Assembly: GCF_020181615.1 (NCBI RefSeq)
Contig: NZ_CP084029.1
Location: forward strand, 2,448,782-2,512,781
Origin: [Mycobacterium] crassicus
GTDB lineage: Bacteria; Actinomycetota; Actinomycetes; Mycobacteriales; Mycobacteriaceae
Direction: 5' to 3'
Length of the DNA stretch: 64,000 nt
The position numbers and the translations under genes were made by a program. Of the stretch, positions 45,187-63,860 are shown piece by piece. How positions within the stretch are numbered: position 1 is the stretch's first letter; each line of letters opens with the position of its first letter. The notes under the pieces were generated by a model. That model did not search any database. It had not been told where the DNA came from and saw nothing but the letters and a program-made list of their open reading frames with translations.

Positions 45187-45859
45187 CGTCGGGGTTTATT
45201 CGGCGGTCCCAGCCTCGCCTCTCCTCCGTCGCGCCTCGCTGAACCGCCGGGCTCGGCATCAACGGCCCACGCGCGGGTTCGGGCGGATAACCGCCGAGAT
45301 CGTCGCGAGTGCTCCAGGTGGCGCACAGGGCGTACACCAGCGCCGCTGAGGCCGCGGGCAGCAACAGCGTTGCCGCGATCTGCAGCGGCGTGTGTCCGAA
45401 GAACACCGGCGGCCCTTCGGCGATGTAGTGCACCCGGTGCTCGGGCGTCACCGGCGCGGCATCCACGTCGATGGTGCCGTAGCGCCGGTGTACCAGTTGG
45501 CCGCCGACCAACACCGCCAGCGCCGCGGTCGCGCTCACGCCGACTGACAGGCCGGCGACCATGCCCGGACCCCGGTGGGCCCGCCACTGCCAGGCCAGCG
45601 CCGCCGCCACCACCGCCACCACGCTCAGCATCCCCAGCAGGAGAAACGGCGCCACGAAGAAGTGGACGGGCTCGTTGCCCAGGTAGGCCTGGATGCGCTC
45701 ACCGCTGCGGGTCAGCGCCACCACGCCGTGGATGGGAGGCGCGATCGACGCCCAGAGCGCCCCGAGCGGCAGCCCGACGGCGCCCAGTCCGGCGACGACG
45801 ATGCCGATCGCACCCAACCGCGGTATGCGCGGCGCTCCGACTTCCGGTGTGGGAGCCAC
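45152..45859 (-). CDS. DUF2567-type membrane protein after bsaP (Rv1591 type)
   Basis: 235 residues with four transmembrane helices (about 18-38, 70-92, 97-117 and 160-182). A large loop between helices 1 and 2 contains [22 protein letters not shown] 45859 shares one base with the bsaP stop (TAGTG), so it is coupled to bsaP and bioB; the longer frame to 45919 lies inside bsaP. The C-terminal about 30 residues come from a copy of the dispersed repeat (45201-45250) and beyond, and run past the end of the convergent lipase gene, suggesting that the original stop was lost. Function unknown; the context suggests a link to biotin. Confidence 0.82.
45201..45250 (+). repeat. Dispersed palindromic repeat, copy 1 (in the membrane gene)
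   Basis: 50 bp starting CGGCGGTCCCAGCCTCGCC and ending CTCGCTGAACCGCCGG. The ends are inverted (CGGCGGT and ACCGCCG). It is about 90% identical to copy 2 and contains all of copy 3. Relative to its host gene it is in the opposite orientation from copies 2 and 3. Confidence 0.85.
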
Positions 45860-46092
45860 TACCTCGCTGCCAGCTCCGCCGAATCCACCTGGCCGTGCCG
45901 GGAGCACTTCGCCCACCATCCGTTCGGCCGAACCTGTACCGCCATCTTGCGGCCGCAGGCCGCGCAGAACCGGGGCGGTCGCAGACCCAGTTGGGCGATC
46001 GACGGCAACGCGGTCTCGCCCTCGCCGATCAGCGCACCGTTGTGGACGTTGTAGACCCCTGCGCCGACCAGATCAGGCAGTTCATTAGCCAT
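45859..46092 (-). CDS. bsaP: Biotin synthase auxiliary protein BsaP
   Basis: 77 residues, Rv1590 type. Known in mycobacteria as a small iron-sulfur protein needed by BioB to turn dethiobiotin into biotin. Candidate ligands are C43 and C46 (RFCAACGRK) and C63/H66 (WWAKCSRHG). ATG 46092 lies 14 bp after the bioB stop. Confidence 0.9.
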
Positions 46093-46106
46093 CCGCTGTC
46101 TGCGCT

Positions 46107-47144
46107 CTACAGGCTGGCGCTGAGCGCCTTGATCGGCATCTTCAGCTCCTCGAGCATCTCCAGGTCGTCGTCGATCGAGCGGCCCAGCGTAGTGAGGTAG
46201 TTGCCGACGATCATCGCGTTGGCGCCGCCCTGCAGGCTGCGCTTGGCGCCCAGGTCACCCAGAGTGATCTCACGGCCACCGGCAAACCGCAGCGTGGTGC
46301 GCGGCAGCGCCAGCCGGAACGCGGCGATGATGCTCAGCGCCTCGAACGCCGACAGCGGCTCCATGTCCTCGAACGGGGTTCCGGGCTGCGGGTTGAGGAA
46401 GTTGATCGGCACGTCGTCGGGGTTCAGCGCGGCGATCTGGCTGGCGAACTCGGCGCGCTGCTCCAGGCTCTCGCCCATCCCGATGATGCCGCCGCTGCAC
46501 AGCTCCATGCCGTTCTCACGGACCAGCTCGAGGGTCGCCAAACGCTCGTCCCATTCGTGGGTGGTCACCACGCTCGGGAAGTAGGAGCGCGCGGTCTCCA
46601 GGTTGTGGTTGTACTTGTGGACGCCGATCTCCTTGAGCTTCTTCGCGGTTCGCGCGGTGAGCAGCCCGAGTGACGCGGCGATCGGGATGTCGAGGCCCTC
46701 CGCGCGGATCGCCTGGATGCCCTCGTCCACCTGCTTGAGCAGCTTGTCATCGGCACCGCGCACGGCGGCGACGATGCAGAACTCGGTGGCGCCGGTGGCG
46801 GCCGTCGCCTTGGCGGCCTCCACCAGTTCGGCCTTGTCGAGCCAGACCCCACGCACCGGCGAGTCGTCGAACACCGCGGACTGCGAACAGAAGTTGCAGT
46901 CCTCGGTGCAGCCACCGGTCTTGAGGCTGATGATGCCCTCAACCTCGACCTCGGGACCGCACCAACGCATCCGGACCTCGTGGGCGAGCTCGAGCAGATC
47001 GTCTAGGCGGTCCTCACCCAACTGGAGCACGGTGAGCACCTGCTCCTTGTTCAACCCCTCGCCGCGCTCCAGCACCTGCTCGCGGGCCACCGCCAGAATG
47101 TCGGTGTTATCGGTGTCAGTGCTGGTCATCGCCGCCTGGGTCAC
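46107..47144 (-). CDS. bioB: Biotin synthase
   Basis: 345 residues, radical SAM enzyme inserting sulfur into dethiobiotin. Cluster motif [13 protein letters not shown] (CxxxCxxC), [20 protein letters not shown] before it, [16 protein letters not shown] and the C-terminal [18 protein letters not shown] 47144 has AGGGAG 7 nt upstream, and the protein then begins VTQAAM as in Rv1589; TTG 47159 is rejected. Transcribed from a promoter whose -10 overlaps the BioQ-type operator, giving a leader of about 80 nt. Confidence 0.97.
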
Positions 47145-47220
47145 CTGCTGCTCCCTCAACTCGTCTCTGTGTTCGCCGCTGAAACCGGCGCTGGCTTGCG
47201 GGTTGCCGCAGAAGCCGACT

Positions 47221-47233
47221 TGAACGCCGTTCA
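47221..47233. promoter_or_regulatory. BioQ box 1: TGAAC-GCC-GTTCA between bioB and bioQ
   Basis: A perfect 13-bp palindrome with a 3-bp centre. On the minus strand its first T is the last base of the bioB -10 box (TAACCT, 47233-47238). On the plus strand it ends 3 nt before the bioQ -10 box (TATGGT, 47237-47242). It matches the TGAAC-N3-GTTxx form described for mycobacterial BioQ. Confidence 0.85.
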
Positions 47234-47236
47234 GGT

Positions 47237-47242
47237 TATGGT
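47237..47242 (+). promoter_or_regulatory. -10 hexamer for bioQ
   Basis: TATGGT, 6 nt before GTG 47249; leaderless transcription is likely. It overlaps the opposite-strand -10 of bioB. Confidence 0.5.
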
Positions 47243-47248
47243 ATCGGC

Positions 47249-47824
47249 GTGCAGCTGCACAAACCTGACGTGGTCGCCGCGGCGGCCACCATCCTGGACA
47301 ACTACGGCATCGCCGACCTGTCGATGCGGCGGTTGGCGCGCGAGCTGAACGTCAGCCCCAGCGCGCTGTACTGGCATTTCGCCAACAAGCAACAACTGTT
47401 GGGCGCCGTCGCCGACCTAGTGCTGGCCGCGGCCTGCGCGGATCCGGGCGCCGGCAGCTGGCAGTGGCGGATCCAGTCGGTGTGCGAACGGCTGCGCGAC
47501 GCACTGCTGTCGCACACCGACGGCGCCGAGCTGGTGTCGGCCAGCCTGGCCGCGGGTCAGTCCCGCGCGGCCGCGGACATCGTGGCACGCCTGGCGGAGT
47601 CGGCGGCGGCGGCCGGAATACACCCGGATCAGGCGGTGCTCGCCGCCCGCACCGTCGTGCACTACGTGCTGGGTTTCACCGCCGACGAACAGTCCCGGCT
47701 GCAGTGGGACGCCGCCGGGGCGGCCGGGATCGCACCCGACACCGATCCGGGCGGCGCGTTCGAATTCGGTTTGACGCTGCTGATCGACGGTTTGGCGGTC
47801 CAGGCGCGGGTGGCCGTCAATTAA
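47249..47824 (+). CDS. bioQ: TetR-family repressor of biotin genes, BioQ
   Basis: 191 residues. N-terminal helix-turn-helix (about 20-45: [20 protein letters not shown], then HFANKQQLL) and an all-helical ligand domain. Identity as BioQ rests on its place divergent from bioB, on the TGAAC-N3-GTTCA box between them and on a second box at bioF. Start at GTG 47249. Its 3' end overlaps the opposite-strand 2H phosphoesterase by 4 bp. Confidence 0.88.
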
Positions 47825-48330
47825 CCGCTGATCTGCTGTTCGGTGCGGGACTTGCCGTTCCAGTGGCGCAGCCCGACGAACCGGCCGGCGATTTCGGAGC
47901 GGCCCGCAATGCGCTGGGACCGAGCCAGCTGGCCGGGCCCGACCCGGCGGGCCAGCGTGACGTGCGGTGTCCACTGCCCGGGCAGCACGTTGGCCATCGG
48001 GGTCGGTTGCAGGTGCGGCGCACTGCGCCGGTAGACCTCGGCGTGCAGGTCCAGCAGGTCCCGGGTGGGCACCACCAGCCGGGCCAGCACCCCATGCGAC
48101 CGGCCGAAGATCAGCGACGCACCCAGCGTGCAGTCCAGCGGCAGCCGAGCCACGACCGGGGCCAGTTCCGCGTCGACCCGCGTGTCGATGCGCTGGGCGA
48201 CCGCGAGGGTGACGTGCGGGCGAGAGGCCGGGGCCTGACTGGGCACCCCGATCGCGGCCAGCTCCGCCCAGATCAGGCGGACCGCTGACTCGGTGTCTTC
48301 GTCGAAGACCAGCTCGATCGAGTGCACCAC
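47821..48330 (-). CDS. 2H phosphoesterase / 2'-5' RNA ligase-like protein (Rv1571 type)
   Basis: 169 residues with the two HxT motifs of the 2H superfamily (SRPHVTLAVAQ near residue 38 and WTPHVTLARRVG near 120). Such proteins act on cyclic phosphodiester or 2'-5' RNA ends; the substrate is unknown. GTG start near 48330, 3 bp after bioD, so it belongs to the bioA/F/D unit, as in M. tuberculosis. Confidence 0.86.
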   Translation of the reverse strand: MVHSIELVFDEDTESAVRLIWAELAAIGVPSQAPASRPHVTLAVAQRIDTRVDAELAPVVARLPLDCTLGASLIFGRSHGVLARLVVPTRDLLDLHAEVYRRSAPHLQPTPMANVLPGQWTPHVTLARRVGPGQLARSQRIAGRSEIAGRFVGLRHWNGKSRTEQQISG

Positions 48331-48333
48331 CGC

Positions 48334-49014
48334 TCAGCCCCCCAGCGTGCGCACCCAGTCGGCGTCGAACGCCTCGCCGCTCATCGCCGCGAACTCCGAG
48401 ACACCCCGCCTCCCCGAACCCGCCGGCAGCACCGCCCGCACCGGCGCCAGCTTGGCCAACGCCGCCCGATTGCTGACCGCAGCCGGACCGGGCTGCTCCG
48501 GCCAGCTTCCGATCACCACCCCGGCACACGACAGTTCTTGCCCGGCAAGGGATTCCAGGGTCAAGGCGGTGTGGTTGAGGGTACCCAGTTCGGCGTTGAC
48601 CACCACCAGCACGGCGGCGCCCAGGTCGACGGCCAGATCGCGCAGGGTTACACCATCGGCGGTCAGTTCGACCAGCAGCCCGCCGGCGCCCTCCACCAAC
48701 GTCAGGCGCCCGGGGCGGTCGGCGGCGCGGATCATGGCCAGCAGCTCAGCCCGGGTGGGCAGCGCCATCCCGGCCCGTTCGGCGGCGGCGACCGGGGCCA
48801 GCGGTTCCGGGTAGCGGCTGGCCCCGAACAGTTCGGTCACCCCCGAGAGCCGGCCGATCTCGGCGAGGTCGTCGTCGCCGTCGGCGGTGCCGGTCTGCAC
48901 CGGTTTGCACACCGCCACATCCCGGCCGTGCCGACGTGCGCAACTGGCCAGGGCCGCGGTGGCGATCGTCTTGCCGACCCCGGTGCCGGTGCCGGTGATG
49001 ACCAGCACGGTCAC
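48334..49014 (-). CDS. bioD: Dethiobiotin synthetase
   Basis: 226 residues. ATP-dependent ring closure of DAPA to dethiobiotin. P-loop [39 protein letters not shown] and [12 protein letters not shown]. Overlaps the bioF stop by 4 bp. Confidence 0.96.
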
Positions 49015-50216
49015 CTCCGCTGTACCGCCAATACGTCCGTCAGCACCCGCCGGGCCAGGGCCAGATCATCGGTGGTGAGCGAGGCCCGCGCGGTCAGGCG
49101 CAGCCGCGACGTGCCCGCCGGCACCGTGGGCGGCCGGAAACAGCCCACTCGGACACCGGCATCCAGGCAGGCCGCCGCGGCGGCCACCGCCACCTCCGGG
49201 TCGCCCAGGATCACCGAGACCACCGCCGATTCCGGCGGTTCAGCGAGGCTCGACGAAGGAGAGGCGAAGCTGGAACCGGCGCCTTGACCCCGACGTTCGG
49301 GTATGTCACAGATCTCGGCGAGGGTGCGCGCGTGCTGCAGCACGGCGGCGGCCCGGGCCGGCTCGGCAGACAGCACCTGCAGGGCGGCCGACGCCGCGCC
49401 GAGCGCCGCGGGGGCCAGCCCGGTGTCGAAGATGAAGGTCCGAGCGGTGTCGATGAGGTGATCGCGGACCGCAACCGGTCCCAGCACCGCGCCGCCCTGA
49501 CTGCCCAGCGCCTTGGACAGCGTCGTCGTCACCACCACATCCGGAGCCCCGGCGAGGCCGACCTCGTGCAGCAGGCCCCGCCCGCCGTCGCCGCGCACCC
49601 CCAGCCCATGCGCCTCGTCGACGATCAGCAGTGCTCCGTGCCGGCGGCACACCTCGTGCAGCTCACGCAGCGGGGCCAGGGCGCCGTCGGCGCTGAACAC
49701 CGACTCGGTCAGGACCACCGCGCGCTCTTCGCCGCGTCCGGCCAGGGCGGCGTCGACGGCATCGACATCACGGTGAGCGGTGATGACCACCCGCGCCTTC
49801 GACAGTCGGCAGCCGTCGACCAGCGACGCGTGGCAGTAGGCGTCGGACACCACCAGCGAGCCGGGCCCCGACAGGCTCACGACGGCACCGATGTTGGCGG
49901 TGTATCCCGAGGAGAACACCAAACCAGCCGGCGCACCCATGAATTCAGCCAGCTGCTGCTCGAACTGCTGATGCAGGCCGGTGTTGCCGGTCACCAGCCG
50001 GGACCCGCCCGCGCCGCCACCCCAGGTGCGCAGCGCTTCGATGCCGCCGGCGATGACGTCCGGGTGCGTCGACAGTCCGAGGTAGTCGTTGGAGGCCAAG
50101 TCCAGTTCGGCGGCGACCGCCGGCCGCACCCGCAGCGAGCGCCGCAGCCCGGCCTGGCGACGTTGCTGCTCCACACCGGCCAGCCAGGCCAGTGGCGACA
50201 GATCCGTGCGGGTCAC
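49011..50216 (-). CDS. bioF: 8-amino-7-oxononanoate synthase
   Basis: 401 residues, PLP enzyme condensing pimeloyl thioester with alanine. [46 protein letters not shown] Lys in [13 protein letters not shown]. About 15 residues longer than I recall for M. tuberculosis BioF1: residues about 312-329 ([15 protein letters not shown]) are encoded by copy 2 of the dispersed repeat and interrupt a conserved region. GTG 50216 has GAGGGAG upstream; the frame further up is inside bioA. Own promoter with a BioQ box. Confidence 0.95.
49232..49281 (-). repeat. Dispersed palindromic repeat, copy 2 (inside bioF)
   Basis: 50 bp, 45/50 identical to copy 1 in the same orientation sense when read on the minus strand ([13 protein letters not shown]). 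In frame with no stop, adding about 17 residues to BioF. Confidence 0.85.
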
Positions 50217-50238
50217 GCTGTGCTCCCTCGACGACGCT

Positions 50239-50251
50239 TGAACACTGTTCA
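50239..50251. promoter_or_regulatory. BioQ box 2: TGAAC-N3-GTTCA upstream of bioF
   Basis: A 13-bp palindrome 23 bp before the bioF GTG, at the end of bioA (it contains the bioA stop codon). Its first minus-strand T is the last base of a TAGCCT -10 box (50251-50256), exactly as in the bioB promoter. Confidence 0.85.
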
Positions 50252-51550
50252 GGCTAAAGCACGGACCACGCCGACCATCGCGGCACCGATCTGGGCGATC
50301 TGCTCGTCGGTGCACACGTAGGGCGGCATCGCGTACACCAGGTTGCGGAACGGCCGCAGCCATACCCCGTGGGCCAGTGCGACCGGGGTGGCTACCGCCA
50401 GGTCCACCGACTGTTCGCATTCGATGACCCCGATGGCACCGCAGACCCGCACGTCGGCGACTCCGGGCAGGTCACGGGCCGGTTCCAGGGCTGCGGTCAG
50501 CCGGGCGCCGATCGCGGCGACCGTCGAGCGCCAGTCCTGGCCGAGCAGCAGTTCGGTGCTGGCCACCGACACCGCGCAGGCCAGCGGGTTGGCCATGAAG
50601 GTGGGGCCGTGCATCAGCGCGCCTGCTTCGCCGCCGCTGATCGTGTGCGCGATGTCGGTGCTGCACAAGGTGGCGGCCAGGCTCAGGTAGCCGCCGGTCA
50701 GCGCCTTGCCGACACACATGATGTCCGGACTGACGCGGGCGTGGTCGGCGGCGAACAGTTCCCCGGTTCGACCGAATCCGGTGGCGATCTCATCGAGGAT
50801 CAGCAGTACGCCGTGGCGCGTGCAGGCGTCACGCAGGTCACGCAGGTAACGCGGATCGTGGAAACGCATTCCGCCGGCCCCCTGCACCACCGGTTCGACG
50901 ATCACGGCGGCCAACTCGTCGCGGTGCTGCCGCAGCAACGCCTCGAAGTCGGCGCTGTAGGCCGGGTCGTAATCGCGGGGCACCTGGGGGGCGAAGACCT
51001 GCGCGGCCAGCACTGAATTTTTTCCGGCCCAAAGCTCATGCATCCCGCCGTCGGGGTCGCAGACGCTCATCGGGGTGAACGTGTCCCCGTGGTAGCCGCC
51101 CCGCCACGTCATCAACCGGTGCTTGCCGGATTGTCCGCGGGCACGCCAGTACTGCAGCGCCATCTTGACCGCGACCTCGACCGACACCGACCCGGAGTCA
51201 CTGAAGAAGACGGTGTCCAGGCCGGCCGGGGTGATCTGCACCAGCAGCTGGGCCAGCCGGGCCGCGGGTTCGTGGGTCAGTCCACCGAACATGACGTGGT
51301 TCATGGTGGCCAGTTGCGTCGTCATCGCCGCGTCCAGTACCGGGTGGCCGTGGCCGTGGATGGCGGTCCACCACGAGCTCATCGCGTCGAGCACCTGGAC
51401 CGGTGCACCATCGACGATCAACGTCAGGTGCGGACCGCGGGCGGCCACCGCCACGATCGGGGCGAGGGCTTCGGCACCGATCGTGCTGTAGGGGTGCCAC
51501 AGGTGTGCGGTGTCGATGGCGCTGATCTGCTCGGGACTCAACGCGGACAT
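50249..51550 (-). CDS. bioA: DAPA aminotransferase
   Basis: 433 residues. PLP enzyme making 7,8-diaminopelargonate with SAM as amino donor. [76 protein letters not shown] Lys in [15 protein letters not shown], and [17 protein letters not shown] 51550 is preferred over longer frames, which leave the family's N-terminus. TACTGT lies 8 nt upstream and overlaps a perfect CTGTCGACAG palindrome (51553-51562), which is not a BioQ box. Confidence 0.96.
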
Positions 51551-51757
51551 GGCTGTCGACAGTAATGCAGCCCGCCCGTCCAGCAGCAATGCGAACAGGT
51601 ACCCGGCAGCTCCGCGGACCGGGTGCCGTAACCGTTCGGTCACAGGTTGCCCAATTTCTCTCCGGGCGGGGTGGTGCGGGTCTACACGCAGGTACGCTCT
51701 GTTACAGGAGTGACGAATGAGGCTGTCGTGATAACGGGGCCGGGAGAGGGGAATTCG

Positions 51758-52462
51758 ATGAAGCGCGTCTATGCCACCGCGATCGCACTGGCAGCGGCAT
51801 TGGCCCCGCTGAGCGTCGCCGCGCCCGCAGGCGCCGACCCCCAGTCCCAATCCGGTCAGAGCCAGCTCATCGACCGAGTTGTCCAGCGCGCGCTGTCCCA
51901 GCGCGGGGTGCCCTTCGTCTACGGCGGCGGTGACGTTTCCGGGCCGACCAACGGGGCCCGCGCAGCCGCGCACACCACGGGCGGTGTCCGGGGTATCGCC
52001 GGTCTACCGGGCGGCCCCGCCGCGGGCATCCCCGGCAGCCCCGTCGCCATCCCGGGTAGCCCCGCCGTCATCCCGGGCAGTCCCACCACCGGTATCCCCG
52101 GCGGTCCTCTCGTGGCTGGTAGCGCCACCCCCGGCCTCCCGGGAGCAACGATTCCCCCCACCCCGGCCCTGCCCGATCTGACCACCGTCGGGTTCGACGC
52201 ATCGGGGCTGATCCAGTACGCGTACGCCGGTGCCGGGATCAAGATGCCCCGCACTTCCGGTGAGCAGTGCAGCGTCGGCCACAAGGTCGCACCCGCGCAG
52301 GCCCGCCCCGGCGACCTGCTCTGTTACGGCCCGGGCGGCTCGCAGAGCGTCGCCATGTACCTCGGCAACAACCAGATGATCGAGGGCACCAGCCCCGTGG
52401 TCGCGGTGTCGCCGGCCCGTACCTCCAACATGGTCCCCTACCTGACCCGGGTGATCGGCTGA
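51758..52462 (+). CDS. ripD: Non-catalytic NlpC/P60 peptidoglycan-binding protein RipD
   Basis: 234 residues. Signal peptide 1-27 ([20 protein letters not shown] then AGA cleavage), so exported. The NlpC/P60 fold is present ([53 protein letters not shown]). However, the catalytic Cys of DCSGL is Ala (residue 148) and the His of the usual HVG is Ser, so it should bind rather than cut peptidoglycan, as known for M. tuberculosis RipD (Rv1566c). Residues about 60-143 are a Gly/Pro/Ala-rich insert with IPGSP repeats that splits the domain before the DASG strand. ATG 51758 has GGGAGAGGGG upstream. Confidence 0.9.
52025..52108 (+). repeat. GIPGSP-type repeat tract in ripD
   Basis: In-frame repeats encoding [20 protein letters not shown] and continuing TTGIPGGP; the unit is about 7-8 codons. 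Confidence 0.75.
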
Positions 52463-52544
52463 CCCACCCGGCGGGCTCGCCGACGACGTCACAGCTTGTG
52501 GAATGCGGTTTCTACAGGGCGATTAGGTAGATTGTCGGGCGACC

Positions 52545-54755: not shown

Positions 54756-54793
54756 GCCCGGCCGCGCTCACCGGCGGCCGCCGGAGAAGCGGA

Positions 54794-54799
54794 TAAGGT
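54794..54799 (+). promoter_or_regulatory. -10 hexamer for treX
   Basis: TAAGGT, 6 nt before GTG 54806. Confidence 0.5.
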
Positions 54800-54805
54800 C
54801 GAGCG

Positions 54806-56983
54806 GTGTCGTCGGCTGAGTCGGGCACCGGACCCACGCCGGGGCCGTCCGCGCCCACGGTCTGGCCCGGGCAGAGTTATCCACTCGGCGCCGTCTACGA
54901 CGGCGCCGGAACCAACTTCGCGGTGTTCTCCGAAGTTGCCGAGCGCGTCGAACTGTGCCTGGTGGACGACCGTGACAACACCGAGACCCGAGTCAACCTC
55001 GACGAGGTCGACGGCTACGTCTGGCATGCCTATCTGCCCGGCATCGGCCCCGGCCAGCACTACGGATTCCGGGTACACGGGCCATTCGAGCCCGCCGCCG
55101 GGCAGCGCTGTGATTCGGGCAAGCTGCTGCTGGACCCGTACGGAAAGGCGTTCCATGGCGACTTCGACTTCGGGCCGGCGCTGTTCTCCTACGACCTGAC
55201 GGACCCGGACGGCGCAGACAGCGGGTACCCTCCCCCGGCGCTGGACTCGTTGGGCCACACCATGACCAGCGTGGTGATCAACCCGTTCTTCGACTGGGCC
55301 ACCGACCGATCACCCCGCACCCCCTACCACGAGACGATCATCTACGAGGCGCACGTCAAGGGCATGACCCAGACCCACCCGGAGATTCCGGACGAGCTGC
55401 GCGGCACCTATGCCGGGCTGGCCCACCCGGTGATCATCGACCACCTCACGTCGCTGAACGTGACCGCGATCGAGTTGATGCCGGTACACCAGTTCCTGCA
55501 CGACCACCGGCTGCTACAGCTGGGCCTGCGTAATTACTGGGGGTACAACACTTTCGGATTCTTCGCCCCGCACAACCAGTACGCGGCGAGTCGCCAGGCC
55601 GGCGGCGCGGTACCGGAGTTCAAGGCGATGGTGCGGTCCTTCCACCAGGCGGGCATCGAGGTGATCCTCGACGTCGTCTACAACCACACCGCCGAAGGCG
55701 ACCACCTGGGCCCGACGCTCAATTTCCGTGGCATCGACAACGCCGCCTACTACCGCCTGGCCGACGACGACAAGCGGATCTACACCGACTACACCGGAAC
55801 CGGCAACAGCCTCAATGCCCGTCATCCGCACACCCTGCAGTTGATCATGGACTCGCTGCGCTACTGGGTGACCGAGATGCACGTCGACGGGTTCCGCTTC
55901 GACCTCGCCTCCACGCTGGCCAGGGAACTGCACGACGTCGATCGGCTCTCGGCCTTCTTCGATCTGGTGCAACAGGATCCGGTGGTCAGCCAGGTCAAAC
56001 TGATCGCCGAGCCGTGGGACGTCGGCGAAGGCGGCTACCAGGTGGGCAACTTCCCCGGGCTGTGGACGGAGTGGAACGGCAAGTACCGCGACACCGTGCG
56101 CGACTATTGGCGCGGTGAGCCCGAAACCCTGGGCGAATTCGGTTCCCGGCTCACCGGCTCGTCGGATCTCTATGAGGCCACCGGCCGGCGCCCCAGCGCC
56201 AGCATCAATTTCGTCACCTGCCACGACGGCTTCACGCTGACCGACCTGGTGTCCTACAACGAGAAGCACAACGAAGCCAACGGTGAGGACAACCGCGATG
56301 GTGAGGGCTACAACCGGTCGTGGAACTGCGGTGTCGAGGGCCCGACCGACGACCCCGCCATACGTGCGTTGCGGGCCCGCCAGATCCGCAACATCATGGC
56401 GACCCTGCTGGTCAGCCAGGGCACCCCGATGATCCTGCACGGCGACGAGATGGGCCGCACCCAGCACGGTAACAACAACGCCTACTGCCAGGACTCCGAA
56501 CTGTCCTGGATGGACTGGACACTGGCCGAACGCAACGCCGACCTGCTGTCCTTCACCCGAGCGTTGACCGCGCTGCGCACCGCGCACCCGGTGTTCCGCC
56601 GGCGCCGGTTCTTCGAGGGCAGGCCGATCCGCGGCGGTGACGAGGTGCGCGACATCGCCTGGCTCACGCCGGCCGGGTACGAGATGACCCAACAGGACTG
56701 GGACAGTGAGTTCGGCCGCTGCGTGATGGTTTTCCTCAACGGTGACGCGCTGCCGGAACCCGATGCGCGCGGCCGGCGCATCGTCGACGACTCATTCCTG
56801 TTGTGCTTCAACGCCGGTGAGACACCGGTGGATTTCGTCACCCCCAACACCGAGTACGCGCAGGGCTGGGCCGCGGTGATCGACACCGCCGATGGCGCCG
56901 GCAGCACCGAGCTGTCGGTGCAGGCGGGCCGGCCCGTCACGGTGGCGGCGCGATCGCTGATCATCCTGCGAAAGAGCCGGTGA
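54806..56983 (+). CDS. treX: Glycogen debranching enzyme TreX
   Basis: 725 residues, GH13 with N-terminal CBM48 ([20 protein letters not shown]). Hydrolyses alpha-1,6 branches of glycogen to feed the TreY route. Catalytic motifs: [12 protein letters not shown], nucleophile in [15 protein letters not shown], acid/base in [26 protein letters not shown] 54806 is set by the -10 box. treY follows after 4 bp. Confidence 0.96.
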
Positions 56984-56987
56984 GCCG

Positions 56988-59264
56988 ATGCCGTTGCCGG
57001 TTTCGACCTATCGGCTGCAGCTGCGCGGGCCGGACAGTGGATTCGGGTTCACCTTCGCCGACGCCGAGAACCTCCTCGACTACCTTGGCCCACTCGGGAT
57101 TTCGCACCTATACCTGTCGCCGATCCTGACCGCGGCACACGGGTCGCCGCACGGCTACGACGTCACCGACCCCACCACGGTGTCCGCTGAACTCGGCGGC
57201 ATCGACGGCCTGCGCAGACTTTCCGATACGGCCCGGGCCCGGGGCATGGGCCTGATCGTCGACATCGTGCCGAACCACGCCGGAGTCGGGATCCCCGAAC
57301 AGAACCCGTGGTGGTGGGATGTGCTGCGGCATGGGCACGCATCGGATTTCGCCCGTTTCTTCGACATCGACTGGGAACTGGGCGCGGGCAAGATCCTGCT
57401 GCCGGTGCTCGACTCAGAGGATGACCTTGGCGGGCTGACGATCGACGGCGACCGGCTGCGGCTCGGCGCCCTGGCGGTGCCGATCAGCCCGGGCACCGAC
57501 CCCGGCAGCCCGAATCAACCCGCGGAAGTCTACCGGCGCCAGCACTACCGGTTGGTGAGCTGGCGCAGCGGCCAGTGCGGCTACCGCCGCTTCCTGGCGA
57601 TCAATTCGCTGGCCGCGCTACGTCAGGAGGACGAGCAGGTCTTTGCGGTGACGCATCGCGAGGTGGCGCGCTGGTTCGATGAGGGCCTGGTGGACGGGCT
57701 GCGCGTAGACCACCTCGACGGATTGTCCGATCCGGCCGGCTATCTGCGCCGGCTGCGCGACCTGATCGGGCCGCAGGCCTGGATCGTCGTCGAGAAGAAC
57801 CTGGCTGTAGATGAGGACCTCGAGCCCTCACTGCCGGTCGCCGGAACCACCGGCTACGACGTGCTGCGCCCGATCGGCGGAATCCTCATCGACCCCGGCG
57901 GCGAGTCCGTGCTGACCGGGCTGGCCGGCCCGGCGGCGGTCGATGCGGTGCCCGAGCTGCGGACCAAGGCCGCGACGGCACTCGACAATGACCTGCAGCG
58001 ACTGCGCCGCTGCATCACCGCCGCCACCGGGTCCGACTCACCCCGGTTGGCTGAGGCACTGGCGGCGCTGATCGGGCGCGTCGGGGTGTATCGCTGCGAT
58101 TACCCGGTGACCGAGCCTGTCCTGCGCACCGCCCTGGCCGAAACGGCGACGGCCACACCGGAGCTCGCATTCGAGTTGGCGATGATCAGCGCCGCGGTGG
58201 CCGGCGGCGGTCAGGTCGCCGTGCGGCTGCAGCAGTTGTGCGTCGCCGCGGTGGCCGGCGGAGTCGAGGGCCTGTTGTTTCACCGCGACCCCCGTCTGGT
58301 GTCGCTGAACGAGTTCGGCGGCGACCCGCATCGGTTCGGGTGCGGCGCAGCGGAGTTTCACTCCGGGCTGGCCGAACGCGCGCGACGCTGGCCGCGGGCG
58401 ATGACCACCCTGTCAACCCACGACACCCAGCGCAGCGAGGACGTCCGGGCCCGGATCGGGGTGCTCTCACAGGTGCCGGGTTTGTGGGCCGATTCGGTCG
58501 CAGGCTGGGAGTCCGCGACCCCCTGCCCCGATCGGCCGACGGGACTGTTCCTGTGGCAGAACATCTTCGGGGTGTGGCCGACAGACGGGATCGTCACCGA
58601 ATCCCTGCGCGCCCGGCTGCACGCCTACGCGCGCAAGGCGGTACGCGAAGCCGCGCGATGCAGCTCCTGGCAGCGGCCCGACACCACGTTCGAGAAGGCG
58701 CTGGCCGAGTGGCTCGACGCCGTGCTCGACGGCCCGGTCGCCGACGAGGTCACCGCGCTGGTCGACAGACTGCGGCCGCACGCGGAAAGCGATGCGCTGG
58801 CCCAGAAACTCCTGGCGCTGACCGTACCGGGAGTGCCCGACGTCTATCAGGGCACCGAGTTATTCGACGACAGCCTGACCGACCCGGACAACCGCCGTCC
58901 GGTCGACTTCGCCGCCCGCCGCGCCGAACTGACCGCCCTGCGGCACCCGAAGATGCGGATCGTGCATGCCGCCCTGCGGTTACGCCGCGAACACCCGGAG
59001 ACTTTTCCGCACGGAACCTATCGCCCACTGTCGGCGGACGGCCCGGCCGCCAACCATGTGGTGGCGTTCCGGCGCGGCGATGATGTGGTGGTCGCGGTCC
59101 GTCGTTGGACGGTGCGTCTGGGCGAAACCGGCTGGGGCAACACCGTGATCACACTCGCGGCCGGTGATTGGACTGACCGGCTGACGGGCCGGAGGTGGGC
59201 CGGGAGGGTACGCGCGGCGGAGATGTTCGGCGAGCTGCCGGGCGTGTTGCTCGAGCGCGCCTAA
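56988..59264 (+). CDS. treY: Maltooligosyltrehalose synthase TreY
   Basis: 758 residues, GH13. Turns the reducing end of maltodextrin into a trehalosyl unit. STYRLQLRGPDSGFGFTFAD, LIVDIVPNHAGVG, nucleophile in GLRVDHLDGLSDP, acid/base in IVVEKNL, STHDTQRSEDVRARI and the C-terminal GVPDVYQGTELFDDSLTDPD. Trehalose release needs TreZ, which in M. tuberculosis follows directly (Rv1562c) but is absent here. Confidence 0.96.
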   Translation: MPLPVSTYRLQLRGPDSGFGFTFADAENLLDYLGPLGISHLYLSPILTAAHGSPHGYDVTDPTTVSAELGGIDGLRRLSDTARARGMGLIVDIVPNHAGVGIPEQNPWWWDVLRHGHASDFARFFDIDWELGAGKILLPVLDSEDDLGGLTIDGDRLRLGALAVPISPGTDPGSPNQPAEVYRRQHYRLVSWRSGQCGYRRFLAINSLAALRQEDEQVFAVTHREVARWFDEGLVDGLRVDHLDGLSDPAGYLRRLRDLIGPQAWIVVEKNLAVDEDLEPSLPVAGTTGYDVLRPIGGILIDPGGESVLTGLAGPAAVDAVPELRTKAATALDNDLQRLRRCITAATGSDSPRLAEALAALIGRVGVYRCDYPVTEPVLRTALAETATATPELAFELAMISAAVAGGGQVAVRLQQLCVAAVAGGVEGLLFHRDPRLVSLNEFGGDPHRFGCGAAEFHSGLAERARRWPRAMTTLSTHDTQRSEDVRARIGVLSQVPGLWADSVAGWESATPCPDRPTGLFLWQNIFGVWPTDGIVTESLRARLHAYARKAVREAARCSSWQRPDTTFEKALAEWLDAVLDGPVADEVTALVDRLRPHAESDALAQKLLALTVPGVPDVYQGTELFDDSLTDPDNRRPVDFAARRAELTALRHPKMRIVHAALRLRREHPETFPHGTYRPLSADGPAANHVVAFRRGDDVVVAVRRWTVRLGETGWGNTVITLAAGDWTDRLTGRRWAGRVRAAEMFGELPGVLLERA

Positions 59265-59291
59265 GGCAGGGGGTAGCGGCCCGGTTCGTGC

Positions 59292-59310
59292 CGCACCGAG
59301 GGCCGGTGCG
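59292..59310. terminator. Hairpin between treY and ilvA, candidate bidirectional terminator
   Basis: CGCACCG-AGGGC-CGGTGCG, a perfect 7-bp stem with a 5-nt loop, in the 117-bp gap between the convergent genes. No T tract, as is common in high-GC actinobacteria. A weaker 6-bp hairpin lies at 59361-59376. Confidence 0.45.
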
Positions 59311-59381
59311 AGCCCGGTGGCCATCCCCAAGCCGGCCCCGGCCTCGCCTTGCAGCCCGCGGCGCCGACCTTTCGGCGGCGC

Positions 59382-60698
59382 TCAGAGCAGGTAGCGATAC
59401 GCCGGCGACCCCGGCTCCAGGGTTTCGACGTGGACGTGCGAGGAGCGCATCCGGGCCAGCAGACCGTCCAGATCGGCCGCCGACCCCAGTTGCACACCGA
59501 CCAGCGCCTCGCCGGTCTCCCGGTTGTTGCGCTTGACGTACTCGAACAAGGTGATGTCGTCGTTGGGACCGAGCACCTCGTCGAGGAATCGCCGCAGGGC
59601 ACCCGGCTCCTGGGGGAAGTCGACCAGGAAGTAGTGCTTGAGGCCCAGATGCACCAACGAACGTTCCAGCACCTCGCCGTAGCGGGACACGTCGTTGTTG
59701 CCGCCGGAGATCAGGCACACCACCGTCGAACCGGGCGTGATCTCGGCTTCCAGCAGGCCGGCCACCGACAGCGCGCCCGCCGGCTCGGCGATGATGCCCT
59801 CGTTCTGGTACAGATCGAGCATCGCGGTACAGACCGCGCCCTCGTCGACGGTGGTGACCGACACCATGTCGCCGGCGGCGGCCAGCGCCGCATACGGCAG
59901 GGCCCCGGCCCGCTTGACGGCGGCGCCGTCGACGAACTGGTCGACGTGTTCCAGGGTCACCAGCTCGCCGGCGGTCAGCGCCGCCATCATCGCGGCGGCT
60001 CCGGCCGGTTCCACACCCAGCACCGAGGTGTTGGTGGTCCGCTCGGCCAGGTAGGAGGTGATCCCGGAGATGCAGCCGCCGCCGCCGACCGGAACCACCA
60101 CCAGGTCCGGTTCGGTACCGAGTTGGTCGAGCAGCTCGACGGCGATGGTGCCCTGACCGGCCATCGTCCGCAGGTCGTCGTACGGCGGCACCAGGGTGGC
60201 GCCGGTACGGGCCACGTCCTCCAGCGCCGCCTCGGCGGCCATGTCGTAGGTCGCCCCGCCCACGATCAGCTCGATGAATTCACCCCCGTGATAGCGGATC
60301 CGGTCGCGCTTCTGCTTCGGGGTTTTGGCGGGCACATAAACCCTGCCCCGGACACCGAGCGTCCGGCAGGCGTAGGCGAAACCCTGCGCGTGATTGCCTG
60401 CCGACGAGCACACCACGCCGCTGGCCAACTCCTCATCGGTCAGCTGGACCAGCAGGTTGTACGCGCCGCGCAGCTTGTAGGACCGCACCGACACCAGGTC
60501 TTCGCGTTTGAGGAACACGTTGGCGCCGGTGATGTTCGACAGCCGGTCACTGTGCTGCAGCGGGGTGGGTGCCACCACGCCGGCAATTCGCTTGGCCGCC
60601 GCATCGACGTCGGCCGCTTTCAACGGACCCTCAGCGGGGCCGCTGCTGGGACCATTTCGGTTCTTGCTGCTTGGGTTCGAGCGGCGTTCGGCGGACAC
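59382..60698 (-). CDS. ilvA: Threonine dehydratase (biosynthetic)
   Basis: 438 residues. PLP enzyme converting threonine to 2-oxobutyrate for isoleucine. PLP Lys in SVRSYKLRGAYNLL, VCSSAGNHAQGFAYA, VVPVGGGGCISGITSYL, CLISGGNNDVSRYGEV; the C-terminal ACT-like regulatory domain (about 345-438, HYFLVDFPQEPGALRRFL) suggests feedback control. GTG 60698; the first 25 residues are Ser/Asn/Gly-rich and variable. Rv1559 homologue. Confidence 0.95.
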   Translation of the reverse strand: MSAERRSNPSSKNRNGPSSGPAEGPLKAADVDAAAKRIAGVVAPTPLQHSDRLSNITGANVFLKREDLVSVRSYKLRGAYNLLVQLTDEELASGVVCSSAGNHAQGFAYACRTLGVRGRVYVPAKTPKQKRDRIRYHGGEFIELIVGGATYDMAAEAALEDVARTGATLVPPYDDLRTMAGQGTIAVELLDQLGTEPDLVVVPVGGGGCISGITSYLAERTTNTSVLGVEPAGAAAMMAALTAGELVTLEHVDQFVDGAAVKRAGALPYAALAAAGDMVSVTTVDEGAVCTAMLDLYQNEGIIAEPAGALSVAGLLEAEITPGSTVVCLISGGNNDVSRYGEVLERSLVHLGLKHYFLVDFPQEPGALRRFLDEVLGPNDDITLFEYVKRNNRETGEALVGVQLGSAADLDGLLARMRSSHVHVETLEPGSPAYRYLL

Positions 60699-60726
60699 CG
60701 CAATATGGTGCCACCCAGCAGCGGGT

Positions 60727-61164
60727 TCAGCCGACCGGGGTCAGCACGAACACCGGGATCTGCCGGTCGGTCTTCGTCTGGTAGTCGGCGTAGTCGGGGT
60801 AGGCCGCCACGGCGCGTTCCCACCACTGCGCCTTCTCGTCGCCGAACACCTCGCGAGCGTCGTAGTCGCCGGTGACAGTGCCGTCCTGCAGTTCGACCCG
60901 CGGGTTCTTGGTCACGTTGTAGTACCAGACCGGGTGCTTGGGGGCTCCCCCGAGGGAGGCGACGATGGCGTACTGGCCGTCGTGCTCCACCCGCATCAGC
61001 GGCGTCTTGCGCAGCTTGCCGGTCTTGGCTCCGATCGAGGTCAACAGGATCACCCGCATGCCGCGCATCTCGGTGCCCTCGGTGCCGCCGGACGCCATGA
61101 TCTGCTCGGCATTCTTGCGGGCCCAATCCAATGTTCCTGGTGCGTATTCTCCGTCCAGAGGCAT
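60727..61164 (-). CDS. Ddn-like F420-dependent nitroreductase-family protein (Rv1558 type)
   Basis: 145 residues. [40 protein letters not shown] and [10 protein letters not shown] are the family signature of F420-dependent Ddn proteins, here with the complete PVWYYN motif seen in active members. ATG 61164, with TAGGCT 6 nt upstream. Third member of this superfamily in the window. Confidence 0.9.
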
Positions 61165-61170
61165 CTGGCC

Positions 61171-61176
61171 AGCCTA
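61171..61176 (-). promoter_or_regulatory. -10 hexamer for the Rv1558-type gene
   Basis: TAGGCT on the minus strand, 6 nt before ATG 61164. Confidence 0.5.
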
Positions 61177-61242
61177 GCCCGTCGGCGCGACACGGCACCT
61201 GATCCAACCAGGTTTCGGCTAGCCAAACAATTGGTTATCGAG

Positions 61243-61248
61243 TACCGT
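61243..61248 (+). promoter_or_regulatory. -10 hexamer for the small membrane protein gene
   Basis: TACCGT, then 7 nt (taacgcc) and ATG 61256. Confidence 0.58.
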
Positions 61249-61255
61249 TAACGCC

Positions 61256-61465
61256 ATGACCATCGTCCATCGCCCCCGGCAGCAGGTGCCGATCGCGGGC
61301 GTGCCGTGGCCGGCCTACAAGCTGGTCGCACTGGCGGTCGGGCTGGTCACGTTGCTGGGCGTCGGGCTCGTCACCGCGAGCGCCTCTGCCGCCGTGTTGT
61401 CCGCGGCCGCCGCCTGCACAGCGGTGTGGCTGACGCTGGGCCCGCTGCACCGGTCGCAGCGGTAG
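61256..61465 (+). CDS. Small two-helix membrane protein, unknown
   Basis: 69 residues: a short polar N-terminus (TIVHRPRQQVPIAGV), two transmembrane helices (about 20-41 and 44-61) and a basic end (HRSQR). No family recognised. Support comes from the leaderless -10 box at exactly 7 nt, the hydrophobic pattern and a gap on this strand between two minus-strand genes. Confidence 0.6.
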   Translation: MTIVHRPRQQVPIAGVPWPAYKLVALAVGLVTLLGVGLVTASASAAVLSAAAACTAVWLTLGPLHRSQR

Positions 61466-61478
61466 ACCCGCGCCGCTC

Positions 61479-61958
61479 TCAACCGTCGTACACCAGCACG
61501 TCGCCCTCCACTCGGGCTTCGGGAGTGGGCCGATGCTCCCGCAGTTTTCCGTCATGCATCAGGTGGCGTACCTCGACCGCGCGCACCAGGGTCAGGTAGT
61601 CGGCGATCAACTTGCGGTGACAGCGCCACCACACCGTCTCGGCGCACATCACCGCCGTCTGGTCGGCGGCCGCGCCCGTCAGTAGCTCATCGATCGCGGC
61701 CCGGAACTCGGCCGAACGCATGTGACTGGCATAGGCGCGGAACGACTCATTGCGCAGCCCCACATCCGGGCTGTCCTGGGCACCCCGTCGCCAACCCCCC
61801 AGGCGCGGCTCCCACCGGTAGCCGATACCGGCCTGCGGCAACCAACTCTCCATCGCGTCGCGGGCGGAGTCGGGGTTGTGCCGACTTCCCGGCGCGGTAC
61901 GTACGTCAACCAGGCCCCGCACGCCGGCGCCGGTCAACAGAGTGGTCAACTCGGCCAC
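61479..61958 (-). CDS. DUF488-family protein, start codon apparently lost
   Basis: 159 residues from GTG 61958: VRGLVDVRTAPGSRHNPD, WEPRLGGWR, VMCAETVWWRCHRKLIADYL and HLMHDGKLREH, typical of DUF488. The family's first strand (FTFGHGTAE) is encoded in frame just upstream (61959-61988), but between it and the fadD stop (62010-62012) there is no ATG, GTG or TTG. Either translation starts late at GTG 61958 and gives a truncated protein, or a base is missing near 61999 (AAT ACC where ATG ACC would be expected). Confidence 0.75.
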   Translation of the reverse strand: MAELTTLLTGAGVRGLVDVRTAPGSRHNPDSARDAMESWLPQAGIGYRWEPRLGGWRRGAQDSPDVGLRNESFRAYASHMRSAEFRAAIDELLTGAAADQTAVMCAETVWWRCHRKLIADYLTLVRAVEVRHLMHDGKLREHRPTPEARVEGDVLVYDG

Positions 61959-62009
61959 CTCCGCGGTACCGTGACCGAAGGTGAAAACCGTTGTCGCCGT
62001 GGTATTCCC

Positions 62010-63860
62010 CTATCCGGCAGCGGCCTGCGGCTGGTGGACGCGTGGCCCGGGTTCGGCGGCGTAGAGTTCCTCGATCTCATCGGCGTACTTCGCGGCGATC
62101 GGCCGGCGCTTGAGCTTCATGGTCAGGGTGACCTCGTCACCGCCCGGCTCCCACAACGTGGGCAACACCTGGAATCGCTTGATCTGTTCGACCCGGGAGA
62201 GTTTGGTATTACCCTCGGCAACCCCGGCCGCGATCCGCGCAATCACCGCCGGGTCCGCGGCCAGGGCGGCCGGCGTCGCCTCCGCCAGCCCGTGAGCGGC
62301 GGCGTACGGTGCCACCGAGTCGGCGTCGAACACCATCAGCGCGGTGTTGTACGGGCGGGCGTCGCCGATCGTGACCATCGCCCCGATCAACGGGCACGCA
62401 CCCAGGATGGCGTTCTCGATGTTGGCCGGCGACATGTTCTTTCCGCCGGCATTGATGATCAGCTCCTTCTTGCGGTCGACCACTCGCAGATAGCCGTCGG
62501 CGTCCTGCTCGAGGATGTCGCCGGTGTGCAGCCAGCCGTCCGCATCGATAGCCTCGGCGGTCTTGGCCGGCTCCTTGCGATAGCCCCGCATCACCAACGG
62601 ACCTCGCACCAGGAATTCGCCGTCATCGGCGATCCGGGACTCCAGGCCCGGCAACAGCTTTCCGACGGTTCCCAGTCTCCCCTCGCGCGGATGGCTCGAC
62701 GAGGCGGCGCAGCTGAGCTCCGACATGCCCCACACCTCGGCGATCGGGATACCGATGCCGGCGAAGAAACCCAGGGTTTCGTTCGGGATGGGCGCCGCGC
62801 CCGAGACCGCCCACCGCAGCTCATCCAACCCGATCTTCGCCCGCAGTTTGGACAGCACCAGCTCGTCGGCGCTCGCCCACTCCGCGGCGAGTTCGGCGGA
62901 CAGCTGCTGCTGGTCGATCATCGCCGCGGCTCGCTTGGCTCCGACCCCCAACGCCCACTGCAGGGCCGCGCTCCGCTGCTCGTCGGGTTCGTTGGTCACC
63001 GCGAATTCGATGGCCGCCTTGAACTTTTCCCATACCCGGGGCACCGCAGCCCAGATCGTCGGCCGCACATCGGGTAGCGCCGCGGCGATGGCGCGCGCGT
63101 CGGGAACCGTGGTGATCTGGACGCCGTAGATTTCCTGGTTGTAGAGCGCCATCGTCCGGTCGGCGATGTGTGCCGACGGCAGATACGAGGTGATCCGGTC
63201 GCCGAACCGCACGCCGAGCACGCCGTCGAGCGCCGCGGCCTCGAACAGCAGGTTGGTGTGCGTCATCTCCACCCCCTTGGGGGTCCCGGTCGTGCCGGAG
63301 GTGTAGATCAGCGTGGCGACGTCGTCGGGTCGCACCGCCCGCCAGGTGGCGTCGAAGTCGAAGTCCGGTTCGCCGGCCGCGAGCAGATCTTCGGTCGACA
63401 AGGTGCCGTCAGGCTGCCCGTCGATACACACGATGTGTTCGATCGCGGCTCCGCTGGCGCGGATGCGCTCAACGTACTGTTCTTCGCAGATCACCACTTT
63501 CGTGTCCGCATTGCCGAACAGGTGGGTCAGTTGCTCGGCGGGCAGCGTGTTGTACACCGAGAACGACGTGGCGCCGACATGCTGGGCGCCCACTTCCAGC
63601 GGGTAGAACTCGATCCTGTTGGCCATCATCAACGACACCGTGTCGCCGCGGCGGACCCCGAGGCCGGCCAGCCCGGCCGCGACTTGACGGACCTGGGCGG
63701 CGTACTGGCGCCAGGTCATCGTCTGGGCGTCACCAACGGTCCGCAGTGCGACCGCATCCGGGTCCACCGCTGCCACCCGCTGAAACGCCTCGCACAGCGT
63801 GCCCGGCGGTTCAGCGAAGCTGGGACCGCCGCATGAACCCGGCGGTTCGGATGTGCTCAC
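62010..63860 (-). CDS. fadD11: Long-chain fatty acid-CoA ligase, FadD11-like
   Basis: 616 residues, AMP-forming ligase. P-loop LIYTSGTTGTPKGVEMTH near residue 192, GMSELSCAAS, the adenylate motif DGWLHTGDI, hinge VDRKKELIINAGGKN and a C-terminal TMKLKRRPIAAKY with the catalytic Lys region. Closest to mycobacterial FadD11 by the SLMMANRIEFYPLEVGAQHV stretch; this is recognition from memory. GTG 63860 overlaps the upstream stop as GTGA. Residues about 10-20 (CGGPSFAEPPG) come from copy 3 of the dispersed repeat. Confidence 0.9.
   Translation of the reverse strand: MSTSEPPGSCGGPSFAEPPGTLCEAFQRVAAVDPDAVALRTVGDAQTMTWRQYAAQVRQVAAGLAGLGVRRGDTVSLMMANRIEFYPLEVGAQHVGATSFSVYNTLPAEQLTHLFGNADTKVVICEEQYVERIRASGAAIEHIVCIDGQPDGTLSTEDLLAAGEPDFDFDATWRAVRPDDVATLIYTSGTTGTPKGVEMTHTNLLFEAAALDGVLGVRFGDRITSYLPSAHIADRTMALYNQEIYGVQITTVPDARAIAAALPDVRPTIWAAVPRVWEKFKAAIEFAVTNEPDEQRSAALQWALGVGAKRAAAMIDQQQLSAELAAEWASADELVLSKLRAKIGLDELRWAVSGAAPIPNETLGFFAGIGIPIAEVWGMSELSCAASSSHPREGRLGTVGKLLPGLESRIADDGEFLVRGPLVMRGYRKEPAKTAEAIDADGWLHTGDILEQDADGYLRVVDRKKELIINAGGKNMSPANIENAILGACPLIGAMVTIGDARPYNTALMVFDADSVAPYAAAHGLAEATPAALAADPAVIARIAAGVAEGNTKLSRVEQIKRFQVLPTLWEPGGDEVTLTMKLKRRPIAAKYADEIEELYAAEPGPRVHQPQAAAG
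63803..63831 (-). repeat. Dispersed palindromic repeat, copy 3 (short, in fadD11)
   Basis: 29 bp identical at both ends to copies 1 and 2 but lacking a central 21 bp (7 codons). It folds as CGGCGGT/ACCGCCG with a small inner CAGC/GCTG stem. A further partial end (CCCGGCGGTTCGG) follows at 63838-63850. Confidence 0.78.

Follow-up and report, generated by a model that had tools for sequence, protein, structure and literature searches.

In-frame palindromic inserts in bacterial genes have precedents in the portions of the literature drawn on here, namely the Rickettsia palindromic elements (RPEs), intragenic repetitive extragenic palindromes (REPs), ERIC and Correia repeats (PMC10969869, PMC2229807, PMC3733652). 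The RPEs, with lengths of about 105–150 bp, are short open-frame hairpin elements found in frame in unrelated conserved genes of Rickettsia, and one RPE-bearing enzyme, the gmk product, was shown to be active (PMC10969869, PMC2229807). The Correia/NEMIS elements of Neisseria comprise a 107-bp open class within genes and a 155-bp stop-bearing class found almost only between genes (PMC2229807), and REPs are small palindromes, some of them within genes, that occur in groups (PMC3733652). The repeat described in this work was recognised in a stretch of 64,000 nucleotides (the window) of [Mycobacterium] crassicus (contig NZ_CP084029.1, positions 2,448,782 to 2,512,781), where three copies lie in or at bioF, a fadD11-like gene and an Rv1591-like gene. 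It is read, with a probability of roughly 0.8, as a small non-autonomous mobile hairpin with CGG-containing target sites, subject to reading-frame selection and possessing a subfamily placed at gene ends.

The way of working resembles that of the RPEs, a hairpin in frame within unrelated conserved genes, since 35 clusters of this palindromic unit were found mid-gene and 18 of 20 scanned host proteins carry a Pfam family. Compared by description, the repeat differs from RPEs in its unit of 57 bp (19 codons), its actinobacterial hosts, its tandem arrays that keep the frame and a shorter subfamily at gene ends, most copies of which bear stops; the unit lengths, mostly 55–58 bp with a long-loop form of 78–80 bp, also fall outside the RPE range. 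To our knowledge, the mover of the RPEs has not been identified. As in Correia/NEMIS, two related size classes are split by location, but the 155-bp Correia class has an extra IHF motif, whereas the classes of the present repeat differ by a paired loss of one base per arm; moreover, TA ends and a target duplication are given for Correia elements, whereas no clear duplication accompanies the present repeat. The likeness to REPs lies in small palindromes found partly in genes and in groups, but the consensus starts with neither GTAG nor CGTC, the marks of the REP families, and, unlike REP/RAYT systems, no resident Y1 transposase was detected in 12 genomes, so that REP/RAYT mobilisation was rejected for Y1 transposases. 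The mycobacterial interspersed repetitive unit (MIRU) is likewise mycobacterial, dispersed, tandem and near gene boundaries; compared by description, the present family differs in its near restriction to Mycolicibacter in the genomes searched. No description of the Mycolicibacter repeat was found in the open-licence literature, as judged from titles and abstract openings of the top-ranked matches. PMC1590033, which has two mycobacteria among its genomes, holds nothing on this repeat in the part of the paper drawn on here. Thus, the kind of element is already known, while the family, its clade and its subfamily split were not found described and seem separate from the RPEs.

The copies in the window and their host genes are as follows, subfamily A being the 57-bp form.

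45192..45248, minus strand: copy 1, a complete A unit of 57 bp, read in frame within the C-terminal tail of the Rv1591-like membrane protein
45152..45919, minus strand: Rv1591-like open reading frame (ORF), 255 aa, host of copy 1 (from the ORF list; name carried from the earlier note)
49234..49290, plus strand: copy 2, a complete A unit of 57 bp, antisense to bioF and adding 19 residues to BioF
49011..50216, minus strand: bioF (8-amino-7-oxononanoate synthase), 401 aa including the insert (alignment with PDB 3wy7)
63805..63840, plus strand: copy 3, 36-bp short form, an A unit lacking 21 central bp, at the 5' edge of fadD11; Mycolicibacter sp. MYC340 has the 57-bp form
62010..63860, minus strand: FadD11-like ORF (from the ORF list; name carried from the earlier note), its true start relative to copy 3 being uncertain

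An earlier note, made from the letters of the window, had reported a dispersed palindrome of about 50 bp at these three places, and the copies were recovered there with the similarity claimed: copy 1, reverse-complemented, is identical to copy 2 at 45/50 positions, and copies 2 and 3 agree at 27/29 once 21 bp are taken out. An 18-base core with up to three mismatches was matched three times in the window against 0.21 expected. The unit is 57 bp rather than 50, because a tail of about CATGAACCC belongs to it, and the extra residues of BioF, given as about 17, are real and number 19. BioF with the insert aligns to PDB 3wy7 over residues 1–400, and the gap falls at the insert. All three copies had been said to be in frame, which held for copies 1 and 2; the flank upstream of copy 3 failed to score as coding by codon usage, and therefore translation of copy 3 at the fadD11 5' edge is uncertain. 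The shorter length of copy 3 was confirmed, and since MYC340 has the full 57 bp at that site, with 21 bp fewer in [Mycobacterium] crassicus, the short form is probably a deletion from a full copy in the [Mycobacterium] crassicus lineage. The note's broader claim, a dispersed hairpin that inserts without breaking the frame, was supported by relatives lacking the insert; its view that such insertion is unusual stands, although the precedents cited above show that it is not unheard of. On one point the note's picture was corrected: most copies of this repeat, too, stay at gene ends or between genes, with 93 of 128 clusters outside the mid-gene class and those of the own genome depleted mid-gene.

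The genome of [Mycobacterium] crassicus (4,871,803 bases in a single contig) gave 75 matches to a 17-base core with up to two mismatches against 1 in the reversed control, and a covariance model built from 21 copies found 96 copies at E ≤ 0.01, with 150 of 6,773 first-look candidates scored; the search for further copies that the note had proposed was thus positive by both routes. Four weak model hits in this genome (797679, 2818112, 1563430 and 1198951) were unrecovered by a DNA profile and stand outside its 61 clusters, and several long-loop hits in MYC017 and MYC123 were likewise unrecovered and stand outside the cluster counts. In a search of 21 genomes, 14 named Mycolicibacter and Mycobacterium sp. 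UM_WGJ carried 33–122 copies each, Mycobacterium sp. 1274756.6 had 2 and M. asiaticum 1, and M. tilburgii, M. houstonense, M. persicum and M. kyorinense showed no copy at E ≤ 0.001. A wider-genus sample of 218 genomes, with at most 25 candidates scored per genome and stricter filters, gave a match at E ≤ 1e-8 in 16, of which 12 had at least 14 copies and 4 had one or two. The latter four (G162, G104, G220 and G248) lie elsewhere in the genus, the match in G162 being strong (E 1.1e-16), and such isolated copies may be horizontal transfers or remnants. A 22-base pattern with 3 mismatches met scattered single matches in other genera, which were taken as chance. Among the genomes searched, the family is therefore nearly confined to Mycolicibacter. 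A plasmid or phage carrier was rejected, as one 63-base copy found no match in 72,556 plasmid and 50,697 phage records, and a known RNA family was rejected as well, with no Rfam match at gathering scores in 12 sources (40,540 bases).

The consensus subfamily A unit, GGCGGTTCAGCGAGGCTCGACGRAGGAGAGSCGAAGCTGGGACCGCCGCATGAACCC, has the ends GGCGGTTC...GAACCC and the terminal arms GGCGGT/ACCGCC, is short and has no gene of its own. It is an imperfect palindrome with compensatory changes, and a consensus-like unit was found to fold at −31.1 kcal/mol (z −3.8). In an alignment of 121 copies (106 distinct) fitted to the covariance model, which favours the stem, standard pairs filled 97.0% of the pair cells, and changes on both sides occurred in 9 of 17 pairs against 1.7 in shuffles; slid controls of the same alignment were 20–55% paired. 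RNAalifold returned 13 pairs of the same stem-loop, 5 of them with changes on both sides. The stem is read as conserved at the nucleic-acid level. Three subfamilies were distinguished. Subfamily A (57 bp) has the arms GGCGGTTCAG / CTGGGACC, is open in 4 of 6 frames and carries TAG in the left arm in 10/121 copies. Subfamily B (55–56 bp) has mostly the arms GGCGGTTAG / CTGGACC, so that one base is lost per arm and the hairpin is kept; TAG or TAA stands in its left arm in 33/44 copies and TCA (TGA on the other strand) in its tail in 24/44. Subfamily C has 21–22 additional loop bases. Long-loop units with a tandem period of about 79–80 bp and poor model coverage were seen at C1:3778914-3779075 of the own genome and at C1:1889536-1889775 of MYC017.

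Evidence of mobility was obtained from orthologous sites. At the bioF site, 69 of 71 comparable loci had no element, 62 of these being shorter by exactly 57 bp. An insert stood at the same position in M. icosiumassiliensis (+57) and in M. acidiphilus (+171, 3 × 57) and was missing from MYC340, so that either repeated hits or loss of copies took place. MYC340 is the nearest named relative by BioF (93% in the best segment), which places the window in Mycolicibacter and not in M. tuberculosis. The alignment of BioF proteins left out L041 and L093 (several stops in the translated matched stretch) and did not include L084. An unrelated 24-bp in-frame insert was seen in the same BioF loop of M. engbaekii (L039) and M. 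asiaticum (L078), and the loop therefore tolerates length changes generally. The aftD element of [Mycobacterium] crassicus was present in 0/18 other genomes, with a difference of exactly 57 against 12 of the 18; at both bioF and aftD, the insert was missing from most orthologues. At the aftD site, the core measured 36 and 42 bp instead of 18 in M. longobardus (L248) and MYC017 (L258), respectively. The Rv1591-like gene was 57 bp longer than in MYC340, with a copy at the site in M. sinensis E1572 (L092) and a partial copy in M. sinensis 852014 (L034). In an EF-G-like gene, [Mycobacterium] crassicus and MYC340 shared the element, and 13 other loci, with varying flank spacings, lacked it; a second, partial EF-G-like match (87% over residues 305–796) was noted in MYC340 (G061 C1:5120834-5122563). 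Another gene, with flanks that were 100% identical in the two genomes, held 1 unit in MYC017 and 3 units in MYC123. Over 132 aligned pairs, mid-gene length differences were 57 (46 pairs), 0 (10), 60, 114, 42, 33, 39, 54, 48 and, in one, 62, and at sites that were not mid-gene many differences were not multiples of three (55, 56, 58, 1, 13, 53, 80 and others). In the carboxyltransferase gene of the own genome (L004, C1:1003115-1003149), the copy was 42 bp shorter than in MYC017 and MYC123, in frame. Presence and absence at precise sites are thus observed directly, and the direction of change is what we infer from them.

Position and frame were evaluated in a four-genome set of 128 clusters and 179 copies (own genome 61 clusters, MYC340 6 from 400 kb only, MYC017 25 and MYC123 36), with mid-gene calls made by a codon-usage script, for which 169 long ORFs served as the training set and which scored 180-bp flanks, an open frame being required. 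The 35 mid-gene clusters were divided into 15 in the own genome, 8 in MYC017, 12 in MYC123 and 0 in MYC340, and the others lay between genes or were otherwise not mid-gene. In the own genome, 15/61 clusters were mid-gene, against 57.6% of 3000 positions drawn at random from a 462-kb stretch (p = 3e-7), and copies are therefore depleted mid-gene. The subfamilies differed sharply, with 34/88 A clusters, 0/29 B clusters and 1/11 mixed or other clusters mid-gene (A against B, p = 1e-5). All 40 mid-gene copies deviated from the model length by 0 (39) or +21 (1), whereas 54/139 others deviated by lengths not divisible by three; the +21 copy is the single mid-gene member of subfamily C, and the four copies of that subfamily outside the mid-gene class were +22. 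Simulated A insertions into genes were open in 68% of cases and fell in the class 'other' in 32%; simulated 55-bp B insertions were open in 0%, nearly all in the two same-strand classes. No broken gene was found, the 15 of 15 same-strand non-mid-gene clusters that were read being between genes or at a gene end. Frame use over the 35 mid-gene clusters (same-strand 0/1/2, antisense 0/1/2) was 23/4/0/0/7/1, and over 29 distinct sites, orthologues being collapsed by hand, 19/2/0/0/7/1 (p = 3e-6 against equal use of the four open frames).

The hosts include AftD, an EmbC-type arabinosyltransferase, a carboxyltransferase, an EF-G-like GTPase, KshA, enoyl-CoA hydratases, a GNAT enzyme, WS/DGAT, an AMP-binding enzyme with ACAS_N, an LCP protein and YjeF, among others. 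The insert lay within the matched domain in eight hosts and split or bordered a domain in two more, and in the other hosts it stood between domains (WS/DGAT, SLBB-HHH, cyclase-AAA) or outside them. Because these proteins are conserved, they are presumably functional with the insert. The favoured mid-gene peptides were of the GGSARLDGGEAKLGPPHEP type and of a second 19-residue type, and their residue make-up suggests flexible linkers.

The target and the route of insertion were approached through the junctions. Flank logos of A copies resembled the unit ends (left GA(A/G)CCC, right GGCG), alike mid-gene and outside. CGG was found at or next to the junction in 9/11 distinct empty sites and CCGG in 5, counted by eye. 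The unit-to-unit junction in arrays is GAACCC^GGCG, and the insertion length equals the main tandem period of 57. Insertion may accordingly be pictured at a short core that contains CGG, often as CC^GG, and is similar to the unit's own junction; this likeness would account both for the exact gain of 57 bp with no clear additional target duplication and for array growth. The counts suggest that insertion is not aimed at reading frames; many in-gene insertions would survive because 57 is 3 × 19 and four of the six frames have no stops, and selection would then remove copies in the two stop frames, copies of frame-shifting lengths and those with unsuitable peptides, leaving mid-gene copies that encode mostly linker-like peptides. 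Subfamily B, with its mostly stop-bearing left arm, was seen solely at gene ends or between genes. A 9-bp target-site duplication was raised by one copy (L024), whose left flank equals its tail, and was unsupported overall in the test of 103 of the 128 clusters.

Several results weigh against a mobile hairpin with such targets. Two of the 11 distinct empty sites have no CGG, and CGG is common in such DNA, which makes the core weak evidence; left flank and tail were marginally more alike within a copy than across copies when nine bases were compared (44 of 2000 permutations), an effect absent at lengths 7, 8 and 10. A survey limited to the Y1 transposase (PF01797) was negative in 12 of 12 genomes, the same search being positive in 5/14 controls. 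Stray left-core matches outside the model hits of the own genome numbered 8 against 1 in the control, two being truncated in-gene copies and six diverging after the core, and stray right-core matches numbered 2 against 5. On the structural side, the RNAalifold covariation term is small, −0.21 of −10.78 kcal/mol. The direction of change may differ at the Rv1591-like gene, where the copy or remnant in two M. sinensis genomes makes loss in MYC340 possible, and the aftD difference against the distant G016 is 62, not a multiple of 3, in an extrapolated alignment. The gene calls rest on the codon-usage script, and the Fisher tests have a degree of circularity, because an open frame was part of the mid-gene definition; one-by-one reading covered the 15 same-strand clusters, and in the class of the 52 clusters with one coding flank simulated insertions amounted to at most 0.3%.

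Chance similarity or conserved protein sequence, the outcome that the earlier note had named as fatal to its claim, was refuted by the 75 core matches against 1 in the control and by relatives without the insert. The terminal arms, the small size, the missing own gene and the polymorphic sites would also fit a miniature inverted-repeat transposable element (MITE), derived by deletion from an insertion sequence whose transposase would move it in trans through the terminal inverted repeats, but this is rather unlikely, as there is no clear target duplication, the insertion length is that of the tandem period, half-element scans of the own genome gave known or truncated copies and a few stray matches, with no clear split ends and no longer element with these ends recognised, and the Y1 survey, of the sole transposase family searched, was negative. 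Of similar standing, and doubtful, is a route in which a site-specific recombinase would join the element, as a small circle or a single-stranded hairpin, into a short core, with the unit's own junction as the best target; the logic would be comparable to that of integron cassettes or IS607. The equality of insertion and array period, the CGG at most empty sites and the flanks that mimic both unit ends inside and outside genes agree with it, but the core is short and common and the flank pattern could include decayed neighbouring units.

Somewhat less doubtful, and still tentative, is the proposal that intergenic copies are kept as portable gene ends, providing a stop with a hairpin terminator or an mRNA-protecting stem, with mobility secondary. 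Elements are faced by 77 gene 3' ends against 43 5' ends (a raw count without a random control); with orthologous sites uncollapsed, 14 of the 77 stop on TAG or TAA 10–11 nt inside the element and 15 stop 0–6 nt before an element in the same orientation. Convergent settings outnumber divergent ones by 15 to 4 at elements, against 55 to 49 at random positions, and the hairpin covaries, but insertions near stops may simply be the least harmful. Beyond the mobile hairpin preferred here, a bolder extension, regarded as improbable, would have the hairpin target itself: units would recombine into a core modelled on their own junction, each copy seeding further ones, with subfamily B as a portable gene end and, as the mover, a recombinase of a type so far unconnected with elements this small. 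If this were true, the repeat would add in-frame 19-residue repeats to proteins, including the cell-wall enzymes AftD and the EmbC-type arabinosyltransferase, and its sister lineage with one base lost per arm would bring its own stop codon and hairpin.

The repeat occurs in tens to about 120 copies per genome, some of them inside domains of conserved enzymes, and for a given copy there are many relatives that have it and many that do not. It thus offers natural before-and-after pairs for the study of protein lengthening by mobile DNA. The division between open 57-bp units mid-gene and mostly stop-bearing 55–56-bp units at gene ends shows reading-frame selection acting on a repeat family. In practical terms, the repeat adds residues to annotated proteins, and its variable tandem loci could serve to type Mycolicibacter species.

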